The notes under the pieces were generated by a model that was not told the origin of the DNA, ran no database searches, and saw nothing but the letters and a program-made list of their open reading frames with translations. The translations under genes and the position numbers were made by a program. This document shows positions 22,341-31,972 of a DNA stretch of 64,000 nucleotides, piece by piece (position 1 is the stretch's first letter; each line of letters opens with the position of its first letter). Location of the stretch: the NCBI RefSeq assembly GCF_003269425.1, contig NZ_CP030104.1, forward strand, positions 3,381,001 to 3,445,000. Direction: 5' to 3'. Source of the DNA: Flagellimonas maritima. Lineage in GTDB: Bacteria; Bacteroidota; Bacteroidia; Flavobacteriales; Flavobacteriaceae.

Positions 22341-23156
22341 ATGGATAGATTACCAAAGATTGCTTTACCTGTAATAGCGGTCATTATCGTATTGATTATT
22401 TTAATTTCAAAGTCGGCCGTAACCATAGGCTCTGGTGAAGCCGGGGTTTTGTACAAGACTTTTGGCGGCGGTGTGGTAACGGACAAGCCAGCACTTGGTG
22501 AAGGGTTCCATATTGTGGCTCCTTGGAACCGGGTCTATATATATGAGGTAAGGCAACAAGAAGTTTTTGAAAAAATGCAAGTGCTTTCCTCAAACGGATT
22601 GGAAATAAAACTGGATGCTTCCGCATGGTTTCAGCCAAAATTTGAGGATTTGGGAAGATTGCACCAAGAAAAAGGGGAATCCTATGTGGATCGTATACTT
22701 CTTCCAACTATTCGTTCAGCTGCAAGAAGTGTTGTGGGGCGTTATACTCCAGAACAATTGTATTCCAGTAAAAGAGATGCCATTCAACAAGAAATTTTTG
22801 AAGAAACAAAGAAAATTGTGGATGGGCAGTATATTCAATTGAACGAAGTGCTTGTTAGGGATGTCACGCTTCCCCCAACTATCAAAGAGGCAATAGAACG
22901 CAAATTAAAACAAGAACAAGAATCATTGGAATATGAATTTCGTCTGGTAACTGCTAAGAAAGAGGCCGAAAAAGTAACCATTGAAGCACAGGGTAAGGCG
23001 GACGCCAACCGAATTCTAAGTGCCTCACTAACGGATAAGATACTTCAAGATAAAGGAATAGATGCTACTCTGGAACTTTCAAAATCCCCAAATTCAAAAG
23101 TGGTCATTGTTGGTAGCGGAGACTCTGGATTACCTTTGATATTGGGAAATAACTAA
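22341..23156 (+). CDS. Prohibitin / SPFH family membrane protein
   Basis: A 271-aa band-7 protein: one N-terminal membrane anchor (about 8-25), the SPFH domain (25-200; GEAGVLYKTFGGGVV, GEGFHIVAPWNRVYIYEVRQQE, RSAARSVVGRYTPEQLYSS) and a helical coiled-coil tail ending in VVIVGSGDSGLPLIL. Prohibitins form large ring assemblies in the membrane and can bind FtsH-type proteases; this is family knowledge. It follows the VWA gene by 10 bp. The his leader region begins right after it. Confidence 0.92.
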   Translation: MDRLPKIALPVIAVIIVLIILISKSAVTIGSGEAGVLYKTFGGGVVTDKPALGEGFHIVAPWNRVYIYEVRQQEVFEKMQVLSSNGLEIKLDASAWFQPKFEDLGRLHQEKGESYVDRILLPTIRSAARSVVGRYTPEQLYSSKRDAIQQEIFEETKKIVDGQYIQLNEVLVRDVTLPPTIKEAIERKLKQEQESLEYEFRLVTAKKEAEKVTIEAQGKADANRILSASLTDKILQDKGIDATLELSKSPNSKVVIVGSGDSGLPLILGNN

Positions 23157-23166
23157 ATAAACCTTT

Positions 23167-23194
23167 TTTGATATAAAAATAAATTTTACTTTTG
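23167..23194 (+). promoter_or_regulatory. Promoter of the histidine operon
   Basis: TTTG at 23167-23170 and TACTTTTG at 23187-23194, with 16 bp between. The leader peptide ATG lies 8 nt after the -7 element, so the leader message would start just before its own start codon. Confidence 0.55.
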
Positions 23195-23202
23195 ATATCG
23201 AA

Positions 23203-23256
23203 ATGAGAAATAACAACACACATCACCATTTTTATCCTTGCACTCAGGCGAGATAG
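23203..23256 (+). CDS. hisL: His operon leader peptide (17 aa)
   Basis: A 17-codon frame, reading MRNNNTHHHFYPCTQAR, with three consecutive His codons (23221-23229), starting 8 nt after the promoter and ending 97 bp before hisG. It is followed by an antiterminator arm and a terminator hairpin. Ribosome stalling at the His codons when charged tRNA-His is scarce is the classical attenuation logic. Leader peptides are known from the enteric his operon; this one is unrelated in sequence. The codons after the His run (CTQAR) carry the antiterminator arm, so their sequence is constrained at RNA level. Confidence 0.75.
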   Translation: MRNNNTHHHFYPCTQAR

Positions 23257-23320
23257 AAATGTATTGTTGTTTTTAAAATATATTCTAAACCCGTTTGAGA
23301 AATCAAGCGGGTTTTATTTT
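23243..23320 (+). promoter_or_regulatory. Transcription attenuator of the histidine operon
   Basis: The terminator hairpin has 5' arm 23287-23298 (AAACCCGTTTGA), loop GAAA, and 3' arm 23303-23314 with one G-T wobble, followed by TATTTTTG. The competing pairing is CTCAGGCG (23243-23250), inside the leader peptide's last codons, with CGTTTGAG (23292-23299): 8 pairs, two of them wobble. A ribosome stalled at His codons 23221-23229 would leave 23243-23250 free, allowing the antiterminator. A ribosome reaching the stop at 23254 would cover it and permit termination. Confidence 0.75.
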
Positions 23321-23355
23321 TGTGCCTGTTTGGAAACCAAACAAAATTTGTAATA

Positions 23356-24213
23356 ATGACTAAAATTAGAATTGCTGTTCAAAAGAGTGGGCGTTTAAAC
23401 CAAGACTCCCTAAAAATTTTAAAAGACTGTGGCATTTCCATTGATAATGGAAAAGACCAACTCAAAGCTACGGCCCGTAATTTTCCTTTGGAAGTTCTTT
23501 ACCTTAGGAATGGTGATATACCACAATATTTAAGGGATGGCATTGTTGACATTGCTGTGCTTGGAGAAAATGTATTAATAGAGAAAGGAAGGGATATATC
23601 AATCGTTGAAAAACTTGGTTTTTCAAAATGCAGGGTCTCTTTAGCGGTTCCAAAATCCACTAAGTACAACTCTGTCAAAGATTTTGAAGGTAAGCGTATC
23701 GCTACTTCATATCCCAATACGGTATTGGATTACCTAAAATCCAAGGGAGTTACCGCTGACCTTCACATTATTAATGGCTCTGTAGAAATAGCTCCGAATA
23801 TTGGACTGGCCGATGGTATCTGTGATATCGTTTCAAGCGGAAGTACATTGTTCAAGAACAATTTAAAGGAGGTCGAGGTTATATTGAAAAGTGAAGCGGT
23901 ATTGGCGGTTTCCCCAAAAATCTCTGAAGAATGTACCGTTATTCTCGAAAAGCTACAATTTCGAATAAAATCAGTGCTACAGGCAAGAAATAATAAATAT
24001 ATATTGCTCAACGCTCCAAATGACAAGTTGGATGAAATCATATCCATATTGCCAGGCATGCGAAGTCCAACCGTGCTTCCTTTGGCGGAAGAAGGATGGA
24101 GTTCCGTACACACGGTTCTAAATAAAGATACTTTTTGGGAGGTCATCGATGAGTTGAAAGAAGCTGGTGCAGAAGGTATTCTGGTATGCCCGATAGAAAA
24201 AATGGTAATCTAA
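23356..24213 (+). CDS. hisG: ATP phosphoribosyltransferase (long form)
   Basis: First, committed step of histidine synthesis: ATP plus PRPP to phosphoribosyl-ATP. At 285 aa it is the long form with a C-terminal regulatory ACT-like domain (about 210-285, ILPGMRSPTVLPLAEEGWSSVHTV) that binds histidine for feedback inhibition. The catalytic part has IAVQKSGRLNQDS, the PRPP motif IVSSGSTLFKNNLKE. ATG 23356 is chosen; an upstream frame reaches into the attenuator and is unlikely. It is the first structural gene after the leader. Confidence 0.96.
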   Translation: MTKIRIAVQKSGRLNQDSLKILKDCGISIDNGKDQLKATARNFPLEVLYLRNGDIPQYLRDGIVDIAVLGENVLIEKGRDISIVEKLGFSKCRVSLAVPKSTKYNSVKDFEGKRIATSYPNTVLDYLKSKGVTADLHIINGSVEIAPNIGLADGICDIVSSGSTLFKNNLKEVEVILKSEAVLAVSPKISEECTVILEKLQFRIKSVLQARNNKYILLNAPNDKLDEIISILPGMRSPTVLPLAEEGWSSVHTVLNKDTFWEVIDELKEAGAEGILVCPIEKMVI

Positions 24214-24308
24214 AAGTACGAGGCAGAGATACTAAGTTGGAAATACAAAGTAAGAAATGAATCAGTTAAGATTAAATTTATCTATGTCCTATCGTAATGT
24301 AACCGTTA

Positions 24309-24388
24309 CCCAGAATTTATTTCTGGGTCACATCATAAAATCAATATATTGAAATTGTTGTGGGATGCTGAAACAAGTTCAGCATGAC
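24309..24388. repeat. REP-like hairpins in the hisG-hisD gap
   Basis: Two hairpins lie in the 248-bp gap: CCCAGAA (24309-24315) with TTCTGGG (24321-24327), and ATGCTGAA with TTCAGCAT in 24365-24388. The second contains CTGAAACAAGTTCAG, the same core as a copy at 30440-30464 and the inverse of the GAACTCGTTTCAG type copies at 30384 and 30523. The rest of the gap shows nothing I can name. Confidence 0.6.
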
Positions 24389-24461
24389 TTGCAAAACGAC
24401 TATTGTAACGAAACATAGAGGTGTGAGATGAGTTTTTCTTCTTCAAAAAAAGTTCGGGAAT

Positions 24462-28102: not shown

Positions 28103-28687
28103 ATGAAAATAGTAATCATAGACTATGGCGCTGGAAACATCCAGAGCATCAAATTTGCCATTCAGCGTTTGGGTTTCACGGCGCGTTTGACGAATGATGT
28201 CGAGGAAATTAAAAATGCGGATAAGGTTATTTTTCCCGGGGTAGGTGAGGCGAGCTCTGCAATGAGAAAATTACGGGCGAGCGGACTGGATATGATTATT
28301 CCTGACTTGAAACAACCCGTTTTGGGAATATGTTTGGGGATGCAGCTGATGTGCAATGCATCCGAAGAGGGAAATACAAAAGGTCTTGGGATTTTTGATT
28401 TGGATGTCGTGAAATTTCCGCTATCCGTAAAAGTGCCACAAATTGGTTGGAACCAGATAGGTGATTTAAAATCGGATTTGTTCAGAAATATTCCCGAGAA
28501 ATCACACATCTATTTGGTACATAGTTTTTATGCGCCTATTGGAAAAGAAACCCTGGCAACATCGGAATATGCTTTGCCTTACAGTGCCGCACTTGGAAAG
28601 GCCAATTTTTATGGAACCCAGTTTCACCCTGAAAAAAGTAGTACTATTGGAGCAAAGATTTTACAAAATTTTTTAGAATTAAAATGA
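28103..28687 (+). CDS. hisH: Imidazole glycerol phosphate synthase, glutaminase subunit
   Basis: Class I glutamine amidotransferase that supplies ammonia to HisF. The nucleophile cysteine is in VLGICLGMQLMC, and the catalytic His-Glu pair is in GTQFHPEKSS near residue 180. The glycine-rich IDYGAGNIQSIKFA start is typical. At 194 aa it is full length. It overlaps the next gene by 4 bp. HisF is encoded two pathway genes further on, separated by the inserted acetyltransferase and DinB-like genes. Confidence 0.96.
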   Translation: MKIVIIDYGAGNIQSIKFAIQRLGFTARLTNDVEEIKNADKVIFPGVGEASSAMRKLRASGLDMIIPDLKQPVLGICLGMQLMCNASEEGNTKGLGIFDLDVVKFPLSVKVPQIGWNQIGDLKSDLFRNIPEKSHIYLVHSFYAPIGKETLATSEYALPYSAALGKANFYGTQFHPEKSSTIGAKILQNFLELK

Positions 28688-29097
28688 ACAACGACTATTA
28701 TATCACTACCGAAAAATCAAGAATGGATGTTGATTTAATTCATAAATATCTCACTAAATCATATTGGGCGAAAGGAAGAAGTAAATCTTTGGTATTGAAA
28801 TCAATGGAGAACTCAATTTGCTTTGGGATTTTTGATAAAAGTAACAACCAAATCGGCTTTGCCAGAGTAGTGAGTGATTTAGTGGTGTTTGCATGGCTAA
28901 TGGATGTTTTCATACTTGATTCGTATCAAGGAAAAGGAATTGGAAAAATACTCTTAAAATTTATTTTTGAATACCCAGAGTTTAAAAATGTAAACGTAAT
29001 AGGGCTTAGAACGAACGATGCACATGCTTTATATGCTCAATTTGGTTTTGAAAGAATACCGAATCCAGAAACCTGGATGCTAAAAAAGAATACTTAA
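28684..29097 (+). CDS. GNAT family N-acetyltransferase embedded in the his operon
   Basis: A 137-aa acetyltransferase of the GNAT fold. The acetyl-CoA loop is seen in VFILDSYQGKGIGKILLKFI (Q/RxxGxG/A), followed by the IGLRTNDAHALYAQFGFE motif typical of the C-terminal half. The start overlaps the hisH stop (ATGA), and hisA starts directly after its stop, so it is fully coupled into the operon. It has no known place in histidine synthesis. It could acetylate a pathway metabolite or tRNA- or antibiotic-like substrate; all of that is inference. Confidence 0.88.
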   Translation: MNNDYYITTEKSRMDVDLIHKYLTKSYWAKGRSKSLVLKSMENSICFGIFDKSNNQIGFARVVSDLVVFAWLMDVFILDSYQGKGIGKILLKFIFEYPEFKNVNVIGLRTNDAHALYAQFGFERIPNPETWMLKKNT

Positions 29098-29877
29098 ATG
29101 CGAATTATACCAGCCATTGATATTATCGAAGGAAAATGTGTCCGATTGTCCAAAGGAGATTATGCTACCAAAAAGATTTATAACGAAAGTCCTTTGGAAA
29201 TTGCAAAGAAATTTGAATCCCATGGTATTCAATATTTACATTTGGTAGATTTGGATGGTGCCAAATCGAAGCACATCGTCAACCACAAAGTATTGGAAAA
29301 TATAGCGACACATACCAATCTTAAAATTGATTTTGGGGGCGGTCTAAAAACAGATGAAGATTTACACATAGCCTTTGAAAGCGGGGCCGATCAAATTACG
29401 GGCGGAAGTATTGCGGTAAAAGAGAAAGAGATATTCTTGGCCTGGTTGCAAAAATATGGCACATCAAAAATTATATTGGGAGCAGATGCCAAAGATGAGA
29501 AAGTTGCAGTTTCAGGATGGTTGGAAGAATCAGATAAGGAATTGATTCCATTTATTCAATCCTATCAAAAAAATGGAGTCAAATATATCATCTGTACGGA
29601 TATAAGTAAAGATGGAATGTTGGAAGGGCCTTCGTTTGAACTTTACAAAAAGATTCTGTCCAATACCATGAAAACAGAAACTTCCATAACTGGGAGTGGC
29701 GTAGAAGATAGCGAAGTCATAGGTATTAGTTTGATTGCAAGTGGAGGTATTTCCAGTTTTGAAGAATTGCCAAAACTTAAGGAAATTGGTTGCGAAGCAA
29801 CTATTATTGGAAAAGCTATCTATGAGAATAGAATCAGTTTAAAACAACTGGAGAACTATATTTTAGAAAATGTATAA
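29098..29877 (+). CDS. hisA: ProFAR isomerase
   Basis: TIM-barrel isomerase converting ProFAR to PRFAR. The first strand is [21 protein letters not shown] with the catalytic aspartate, and the phosphate sites are in [13 protein letters not shown] and [13 protein letters not shown]. The second-half signature is [16 protein letters not shown] with the other aspartate. At 259 aa it is full length; a short extra insertion ([20 protein letters not shown], near 205) between strands 7 and 8 is unusual relative to most HisA. It overlaps the following DinB-like gene by 8 bp. Confidence 0.95.
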
Positions 29878-30379
29878 ACAGTGGCAAACAGAAGTAGTAC
29901 TCAATGCAAACTATAGAATGGAGGAAAACCTACGCATGATCAAAATCTGCTTGGAGAAACTCTCAGACAAAGTAATTTGGCAAAAACCCAATGAAAGTAC
30001 AAATAGCATTGGAAATCTCATTTTACATCTATGTGGCAATATCACACAATATGGGATTTCTTCGATTCAAGGTACCGAGGATAACAGGAACCGGAATGAA
30101 GAATTTATGACTTTATCCGGTTTGGACAAAGACGAACTATTTCAAAAACTGGTTTCAACCGTAGAAAAAGCCAAGTTTGTGTTTAACTCGGCAACAAACG
30201 ATGAATTGATAAAGAAAAGGTCGGTACAAGGATTCGAATTCTCTGGAATTGGTAATATTATTCATGTAGTGGAACACCTGTCATATCATACGGGGCAAAT
30301 AGCGCTATGGACCAAAATTTTAATCAATAGCGATTTAGGGTTTTACGATGGGATTGATCTAAATGTTAAGAATGAATAG
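29870..30379 (+). CDS. DinB-fold (DUF1572-type) protein embedded in the his operon
   Basis: A 169-aa four-helix protein of the DinB superfamily. Histidines consistent with the metal triad are in [10 protein letters not shown] and [15 protein letters not shown]. It overlaps hisA by 8 bp, so it is translationally coupled, but is followed by a 238-bp gap before hisF. Related DinB proteins may be thiol-dependent transferases; here no substrate is evident. A second DinB-family gene lies at 4654-5169 and is only distantly similar. Confidence 0.82.
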
Positions 30380-31375: not shown

Positions 31376-31972
31376 ATGAAAATAGACTTCAACAAAAATA
31401 ACGATGGATTAGTACCTGCAATAATTCAGGATGTTAAAACAAAAAATGTCCTTATGTTAGGATATATGGACCAAGAGGCATTGGATGTTACGCAAGAAAC
31501 CAAAAGGGTCACTTTTTTTAGTCGTAGTAAAAGGCGATTATGGACAAAAGGCGAGGAGAGTGGCAACTTCTTGAATCTAGTGAGCATAAAAAATGATTGT
31601 GATAATGATACCCTACTCGTTATGGTAAATCCAGAAGGGCCGACTTGTCATAAAGGAACCGATACCTGTTGGGCTGGGGACAACACACAGAATTTTGGAT
31701 TTCTAACGGAACTAGAGGAGATTATAACTTCCCGAAAAGAACACCAGGATGATGAAAAAAGCTATGTTGCGTCATTGTTTAAAAAAGGCATTAATAAAAT
31801 AGCCCAAAAAGTAGGGGAGGAAGCTGTTGAAACTGTGATTGAGGCCAAAGACGATAACGATGAACTTTTTTTGAACGAAAGCGCGGATTTATTGTTCCAT
31901 TATTTGATTTTATTGCAGGCCAAAGGATATACACTGAAAGACATTGTAAAAGTTCTCGAGAGCAGACATTGA
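31376..31972 (+). CDS. hisIE: Bifunctional phosphoribosyl-AMP cyclohydrolase / phosphoribosyl-ATP pyrophosphohydrolase
   Basis: Steps 2 and 3 of the pathway. The HisI half (1-105) has the zinc-binding cysteines in NDCDNDTLLV and GPTCHKGTDTCW; the HisE half (about 110-198) has the EEAVETVIEAKDDND helix pair of the MazG-like fold. At 198 aa it is the usual fusion. It ends the operon. The next 128 bp hold heptamer repeats and no clear terminator that I can call. Confidence 0.96.
   Translation: MKIDFNKNNDGLVPAIIQDVKTKNVLMLGYMDQEALDVTQETKRVTFFSRSKRRLWTKGEESGNFLNLVSIKNDCDNDTLLVMVNPEGPTCHKGTDTCWAGDNTQNFGFLTELEEIITSRKEHQDDEKSYVASLFKKGINKIAQKVGEEAVETVIEAKDDNDELFLNESADLLFHYLILLQAKGYTLKDIVKVLESRH

Follow-up and report, generated by a model that had tools for sequence, protein, structure and literature searches.

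Upstream of the histidine operon of Flagellimonas maritima lies what is, in all likelihood, a ribosome-mediated transcription attenuator, judged from sequence comparison and folding: a short leader ORF with three consecutive His codons, whose last codons can pair with an arm of the terminator preceding hisG. We call the whole stretch of DNA analysed (64,000 nucleotides of contig NZ_CP030104.1) the window. An earlier reading of this stretch from its letters alone (the sequence-only reading) had proposed a his-operon attenuator with a 17-residue HisHisHis leader, and its proposal is borne out by the cognate operon downstream, conserved His codons and terminator, a complementary leader tail and the three states obtained by folding. 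The promoter, leader frame, antiterminator arm and GAAA-loop terminator that it named are all present. Its bounds for the element, 23187..23320, hold these parts, except that the start moves nearer to 23164 once the upstream promoter element is counted.

The locus

The window's his genes lie on one strand (Table 1), and hisD, hisC, hisB, hisH, hisA and hisF were all matched by an NCBIfam scan. The preceding gene (22341-23156), on the same strand, ends 46 nt 5′ of the leader ORF, and the 199 nt between it and hisG contain the promoter-like site, the leader ORF and the hairpin. Within the predicted promoter, the TTTTTTG element and the -7 box are separated by 16 nt.

Table 1. Parts of the proposed attenuator and of the his operon, in window coordinates
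Feature	Position	Strand	Basis or remark
his operon		+	Begins with hisG, then hisD, hisC, hisB, hisH, GNAT-like gene, hisA, 169-aa ORF, hisF, hisIE-like ORF
hisG, first gene of the operon	23356..24213	+	TIGR00070 match, 1.4e-54
Putative hisIE-like ORF, last of the operon	31376-31972	+	By reading of the ORF
Predicted Bacteroidota-type sigma-A promoter: -7 box TACTTTTG and TTTTTTG	23187-23194 and 23164-23170	+	Consensus TAnnTTTG
5′ UTR, 4 nt, inferred	23199..23202	+	Transcription start ~23199 from position of the -7 box
Leader ORF MRNNNTHHHFYPCTQAR	23203..23256	+	17 codons and TAG stop
Proposed His-His-His sensor codons (CAT CAC CAT)	23221..23229	+	
1:2 stem, arm 1, in the leader's first codons	23206..23216	+	Fold and permutation test
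1:2 stem, arm 2	23264..23274	+	Fold and permutation test
Inner stem, 23227-23241 with 23248-23261	23227..23261	+	Fold
Antiterminator 5′ arm CUCAGGCG, within leader codons T-Q-A	23243..23250	+	
Antiterminator 3′ arm CGUUUGAG, most of the terminator 5′ arm and first loop base	23292..23299	+	
Intrinsic terminator, 12-bp stem 23287-23298/23303-23314, GAAA loop, then U-rich run	23287..23314	+	

The operon also carries non-his genes—a GNAT-like ORF between hisH and hisA (28684-29097) with a weak RimI match, and a 169-aa ORF between hisA and hisF (29870-30379) for which the scan returned no NCBIfam match. The 248-nt gap between hisG and hisD (24214-24461) contains the palindromes CCCAGAATTTATTTCTGGG and GATGCTGAAACAAGTTCAGCATGAC, possibly a dispersed repeat.

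The leader peptide in the window's family

Related loci were taken as the best 80 (best-segment identity at least 78%) from a scan of named genomes with HisG. The named genera among them (Allomuricauda, Flagellimonas, Maribacter, Zobellia, Arenibacter, Cellulophaga, Aquimarina and others) we take to be Flavobacteriaceae, the family labelled f1 here, and some of the loci come from unclassified bins. Of these 80 relatives, 79 have a His leader 5′ of hisG, the single miss (L072) having only 180 nt of upstream DNA; with L072 left out and the window added, these make up the 80 f1 loci used below. Their leaders follow the approximate consensus M-x-N-x-N-T-HHH(H)-F-Y-T-C-x-Q-A-R in ORFs of 45, 54, 57 or 60 nt. 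The sequence-only reading had named variable His codons as an observation that would speak against it; they are instead conserved among the 80 loci, with a longest His run of 3-5 in 77 and of 2 in the other three, and with CAT used 257 times and CAC 36 times. The distance from stop codon to the CCCG of the hairpin takes ten values covering all remainders modulo 3.

The C-terminal residues QAR are kept in 62/80 leaders, and the pattern of codons points to the RNA. The tail Ala codon is GCG in 75 of the 77 leaders with Ala there, whereas the hisG genes of these loci use GCG for 188 of 1480 Ala codons, and in L026, L032 and L041, where the Gln codon CAG has become TAG, the peptide lacks QAR and the RNA still reads GGCGAGG; the tail codons are therefore kept at least partly for the RNA. 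This bears on a possible second role, in trans and added to the one in cis, for the peptide or for the leader RNA released by termination (~120 nt), on the model of peTrpL and rnTrpL in Sinorhizobium meliloti. A small, nearly leaderless mRNA would indeed resemble rnTrpL (PMC7298713), and the conserved peptide tail would fit, but that conservation is explained by RNA pairing, given the GCG bias and the three early-stop loci that keep the RNA, and the peptides of other families are unrelated, so that we regard an added trans role as unlikely.

A nearly leaderless start

Of the 80 f1 loci, 71 have a TAnnTTT[GA] box ending 7-9 nt 5′ of the leader's start codon, under a rule that accepted gaps of 5-10 nt. 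Shuffled upstream DNA gave a box at 5-10 nt in 2.7/80 (maximum 7 over 200 rounds), and among 1318 further ATGs in these flanks only 2 are preceded by such a box. It is missing in nine f1 loci, five of them Aquimarina. Since the Bacteroidota -7 box, with consensus TAnnTTTG, sits at -12 to -5 (PMC9723704), the 5′ UTR would be only about 3-5 nt long (4 nt in the window) and the leader start nearly leaderless. Gaps of at most 10 nt also occur in other families (8/11 leaders in f4, 3/5 in f5 and 4/8 in f8); longer ones were found in f2 (7/7), f9 (2/3) and f12 (1/1), at 16-20 nt, and in f3, at 20-48 nt. Genome-wide, leaderless mRNAs make up 5.5% in Flavobacterium psychrophilum (PMC9723704), and 5′ UTRs shorter than 10 nt about 3.7% in Bacteroides thetaiotaomicron (PMC7366714). 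As Flavobacteria do without Shine-Dalgarno sequences (PMC9723704), a nearly leaderless attenuator poses the question of how the first ribosome loads in time to catch the polymerase.

Terminator, antiterminator and their conservation

The leader segment CUCAGGCG complements CGUUUGAG over 8 pairs, two of them G-U. As the sequence-only reading had claimed, this pairing and the terminator are mutually exclusive, with 23292-23298 common to both. The minimum free energy of 23200-23321 is -35.6 kcal/mol (z -6.2; equalled by 0/200 shuffles); the terminator alone likewise reaches z -6.2 (0/200 shuffles equal), and the antiterminator hairpin z -3.35 (2/200 equal).

The terminator arm CCCGUUUGA lies 3′ of the leader in all 80 f1 loci, and a terminator was found in 79/79 f1 loci with a detected leader (from the best 80 relatives) by a rule similar to the strict one applied to other families below; in L026, L032 and L051, where the automatic choice of terminator erred, the true hairpin arm is present. 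RNAalifold on an alignment of the whole family (A1, into which L071, rejected by the automatic pattern for its loop, was placed manually) recovers the terminator only, and the other pairings were therefore examined arm by arm. Complementarity between the two arms of the 1:2 stem was equalled in 11 of 5000 permutations of partners (79 loci), so this stem is only moderately supported. Antiterminator pairing holds in 95.0% of cells among 65 distinct f1 segments, against 20.9-54.1% when the partner is slid by 1-3 columns. No double compensatory change was seen at any of its 11 pairs within f1, and shuffling partners within f1 pairs them almost equally well (94.8 vs 95.0%, 85 of 500 shuffles as high), because the arms are too conserved there for covariation to tell. 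The f1 antiterminator is thus conserved, not covarying. By sequence and folding only, it would share an arm with the terminator and be freed by a stall at the His codons.

Folding states and proposed mechanism

RNA extending up to the terminator loop, with no ribosome on it, folds into the 1:2 and inner stems. With the A site placed on any of the three His codons and the RNA ending after the loop, the CUCAGGCG:CGUUUGAG hairpin forms instead (-15.0 kcal/mol). A ribosome positioned on the stop codon leaves almost no structure (-0.5 kcal/mol), and therefore the terminator (-17.1 kcal/mol) forms next. Once the RNA is complete, the terminator persists in the equilibrium fold despite a stalled ribosome (-27.0 or -22.8 kcal/mol), and the switch must therefore be kinetic, set by the order of synthesis. 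Kinetic antitermination is the general assumption for classical attenuators.

We envisage the following course. Transcription would start about 4 nt 5′ of the leader ATG, and a ribosome would load at the newly emerging 5′ end of the transcript. When charged tRNA-His is ample, the ribosome would reach the stop codon (23254-23256) and mask the leader tail, leaving CUCAGGCG unable to pair; when no ribosome has loaded, the 1:2 and inner stems would hide the same segment, the inner stem covering part of the antiterminator arm. With CUCAGGCG masked, the 23287-23314 hairpin would form and RNA polymerase would halt before hisG. When histidine is short, the ribosome would stall on the His codons and open the 1:2 stem, and CUCAGGCG would pair with CGUUUGAG upon the latter's transcription. 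This pairing would pre-empt the terminator, and the his genes would be transcribed.

Leaders and terminators across the phylum

A covariance model built from 43 of the f1 loci (R1), which holds little information (0.59 bits per position), was searched in 395 genomes of the phylum, 330 of them with HisG. At E 0.01 it matched 80/395 genomes—44 strongly (E 1.4e-10 or better) and the remaining 36 weakly only, the next score being 9.6e-6 or worse. All 44 strong matches sit 16-84 nt 5′ of HisG; 40 belong to f1, two to f2 and one each to f35 and f39. In the f1 sample, all 40 HisG-bearing genomes are strong for R1, and the 41st, in which no HisG match was found, is weak only. We inspected 20 R1 regions, namely the 4 strong matches outside f1 and 16 weak ones; 13 are at HisG and were used, and seven are not (L116, L118, L119, L120, L125, L127 and L130). 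Two of the loci in other families of the same phylum, L112 and L113 (genomes G255 and G152), have an f1-like element at hisG with strong R1 matches; one of their HisG proteins is 61% identical, and the element there may reflect horizontal transfer or mis-binning.

We then read 73 hand-picked HisG-upstream loci from 23 other families, one to several per family; f18 and several further families with HisG matches were left out of this set. A His leader was scored as a short ORF 5′ of hisG with at least three His within five residues. It was found in 64/73 loci and 18/23 families, compared with 1/73 on the antisense strand and 1.7/73 in shuffles, and some of the 64 are doubtful (for example L163, whose ORF lies 302-356 nt upstream). 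The nine loci failing the rule are L112, L157, L172, L176, L177, L178, L180, L181 and L186; L112, counted a miss, spreads its His as HLHALH and has a terminator. The peptides of these families are mutually unrelated, for example HTHHHHFLPQG, THHHHHCLTEQTVG and HHFHHSS. The sequence-only reading had suggested a Bacteroidota-specific class; the class to which the window belongs by sequence is essentially that of its own family, f1, and what recurs in the other families is a His leader of unrelated sequence.

A strict terminator rule (an unbroken stem of at least six pairs together with four T in a row) found a terminator with 39 of the 64 leaders; because it demands an unbroken stem it misses broken ones, such as the visible hairpin of L113. 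No terminator was found by this rule in the leader-bearing loci of f3 (7), f9 (3), f10 (2), f22 (1), f24 (2) and f43 (1). Where both parts are present, the leader tail fits its own terminator arm. Over 50 distinct arms, f1 included, pairing averaged -14.5 kcal/mol against -9.7 for permuted partners, and, when each of 13 families contributed a single locus, -13.8 against -9.5 kcal/mol; 0 of 10,000 permutations were as good in either case. Shuffled tails gave -7.9 and -8.6 kcal/mol in the two sets (0/200 as good in each). In 12 of the 18 other families with a leader, at least one locus has a terminator and a tail matching its own arm. The pairing is thus kept while both partners change, evidence that f1 as a single family could not give. 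Arms that vary without compensation were the other observation that the sequence-only reading had set against itself: between families the arms do vary, yet remain complementary; within f1 they hardly vary, and compensatory changes are absent there.

These comparisons also bear on the possibility that the hairpin merely ends transcription of the upstream gene, or terminates constitutively and in part, and that the His ORF is incidental. That gene ends so close by on the same strand that a terminator would be expected hereabouts. Against this, the promoter-like site falls between the gene and the hairpin, 79 of the best 80 related loci retain the His ORF, which also occurs far above both controls in the 73 of other families, and the leader tail tracks the terminator arm; we consider this alternative highly improbable and retain the attenuator reading.

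His leaders without terminators

In family f3 we searched 61 genomes, 48 of them with HisG, and read 30 loci (L203-L232), of which L218, L225, L231 and L232 come from the same genomes as L165-L168 of the 73-locus set. A highly conserved His leader, FTHHxHFHHRxxGD, is present in 29/30. The strict rule found an intrinsic terminator in 0/29 of these leader-bearing loci (L221 left out) and in 0/7 of L165-L171. In an alignment of 23 of the 29 leaders (A3; the divergent or extended L203, L204, L205, L208, L217 and L224 were excluded), a second conserved hairpin, GUUUCUACGUGAAAC, accompanies one in which the last His/Arg codons pair with sequence around the stop and in which both bases of one pair have changed, from GC to AU, in 3 sequences. 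The start codon nearest the matched HisG residues in the 30 loci is TTG in 21, GTG in 2 and ATG in 7.

A second output is suggested by these leaders that lack a terminator; Rho-dependent termination and control of hisG translation are candidates for it in f3. Could the window's leader, too, control hisG translation, by start-site release or reinitiation, and not transcription? The missing terminators of f3 and the proposal that leaders close to a gene aid reinitiation (PMC4833913) would favour this, but every one of the 79 f1 loci with a detected leader has a terminator and the leader stop is mostly ~100 nt from hisG, which makes translational control in place of attenuation very unlikely in the window. 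For the phylum as a whole we offer only tentatively, at slightly under even chances, that sensing by His leader peptides is near-universal 5′ of Bacteroidota hisG and often nearly leaderless, with an output rebuilt repeatedly and, in f3, terminator-less (Rho-dependent or translational). No description of a terminator-less his switch like the one proposed for f3 turned up in our literature search, made mostly among papers open without subscription.

Related arrangements were seen elsewhere. The His leaders of L138, L140, L142 and L143 (f8) and of L158 and L159 (f9) end in HHSS (HHSSC in L159) directly before the stop codon, which is surrounded by hairpins of the TTCCTC...GAGGAA type; no terminator was found in these loci. 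In the window's own genome, a Thr/Ile-containing leader ORF lies 5′ of a thrA-like gene (L201, reverse strand, 579-669); its last codons and stop form the CATTACCCCTTTGGGGTAATTG hairpin, which has no U-run, and the 5′ end of the ORF pairs with a segment beyond the stop, an arrangement that resembles the terminator-less design of f3.

Other amino acid leaders in the same genome

The same genome has a trp leader, MNLKTVNTWWWINLRRMS (WWW), 5′ of trpE (L199); its -7 box lies just 5 nt 5′ of the ATG, and a terminator-like hairpin, AGAGGCTTGTCATCACGACAAGCCTTT, comes after the leader. A phe leader, MTKVYFWNGFYFYFFFKRSKGLF (FYFYFFF), lies 5′ of pheA (L198) and is likewise followed by a terminator-like hairpin. 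No leader was seen at ilvD. The trp and phe leaders with their hairpins suggest that leader-peptide attenuation is probably at home in this organism.

Comparison with known systems

The sequence-only reading had wondered whether this class has been described, and in part it is in print. The transcriptome of F. psychrophilum gave strong clues for leader-peptide attenuation at amino-acid operons, together with an unclassified structured element 5′ of hisG that occurs in other Flavobacteriaceae genera as well and has no Rfam match (PMC9723704, 2021). Likened by its description, the window's element very probably belongs to the same family. Because that study reports both the attenuation clues and the hisG element, we count the window's element as a leader-peptide attenuator whose existence had already been noticed (PMC9723704); the account of the hisG element, in those portions of the paper available to us, includes neither a leader sequence nor an antiterminator and does not reach past the family. 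That study was the relevant yield of a literature search for Bacteroidota his attenuators made mostly among papers open without subscription. In B. thetaiotaomicron, short ORFs in long 5′ UTRs are reminiscent of leader peptides, and the available portions of that report do not mention histidine (PMC7366714).

A survey of histidine regulation places T-boxes in Firmicutes and Actinobacteria and attenuators in Proteobacteria and some Firmicutes (PMC9413887, 2022); the word Bacteroidetes is absent from its main text. In a 2010 survey, leader peptides were known only in Proteobacteria and Actinobacteria (ermC apart), to which Firmicutes were then added (PMC2965389). Our results support leader-peptide histidine control in a large phylum that goes unmentioned in the available portions of both surveys, and the turnover of leaders and terminators between families, with complementarity kept, is a natural data set for attenuator evolution.

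T-boxes do regulate his genes in Firmicutes and Actinobacteria (PMC9413887), but a T-box or metabolite riboswitch 5′ of the window's hisG is exceedingly improbable: all Rfam matches in the window fall below their cut-offs, and T-box is absent among the 23 matches at the element down to E 10. The attenuator reading finds an echo in RF00514 His_leader, which has the highest bit score at the element (23220-23319) and, at 28.6 bits against a cut-off of 49, falls short of membership by score; since the U4 snRNA has a better E-value there (0.0024 vs 0.0068), this resemblance is weak evidence. Rfam matches likewise stayed below cut-off in all of 15 loci examined from other families. Sub-threshold Thr_leader matches lie over the His leader region in L141 (39.1 bits), L122 (27.0) and L164 (24.5), against a cut-off of 55.

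The his attenuators of the Bacillus cereus group, Eubacteriales and Erysipelotrichales likewise combine leader peptide, terminator and antiterminator, in Firmicutes (PMC9413887). Leader-peptide mRNAs with no 5′ UTR are known at the trpL attenuator of S. meliloti (PMC7298713) and for LeuL, TrpL, IlvL and others in Streptomyces lividans (PMC8079986), in other phyla and for other amino acids; the window's leader differs from them in a predicted UTR of ~3-5 nt. With enteric hisL/His_leader, the element shares a His-run short ORF 5′ of hisG, a terminator and an antiterminator set by ribosome position. The E. coli his leader has seven His in a row, compared with three in the window, and the window's element further differs from the enteric one in an antiterminator arm placed inside the leader's last codons and in a near-leaderless start from a TAnnTTTG promoter.
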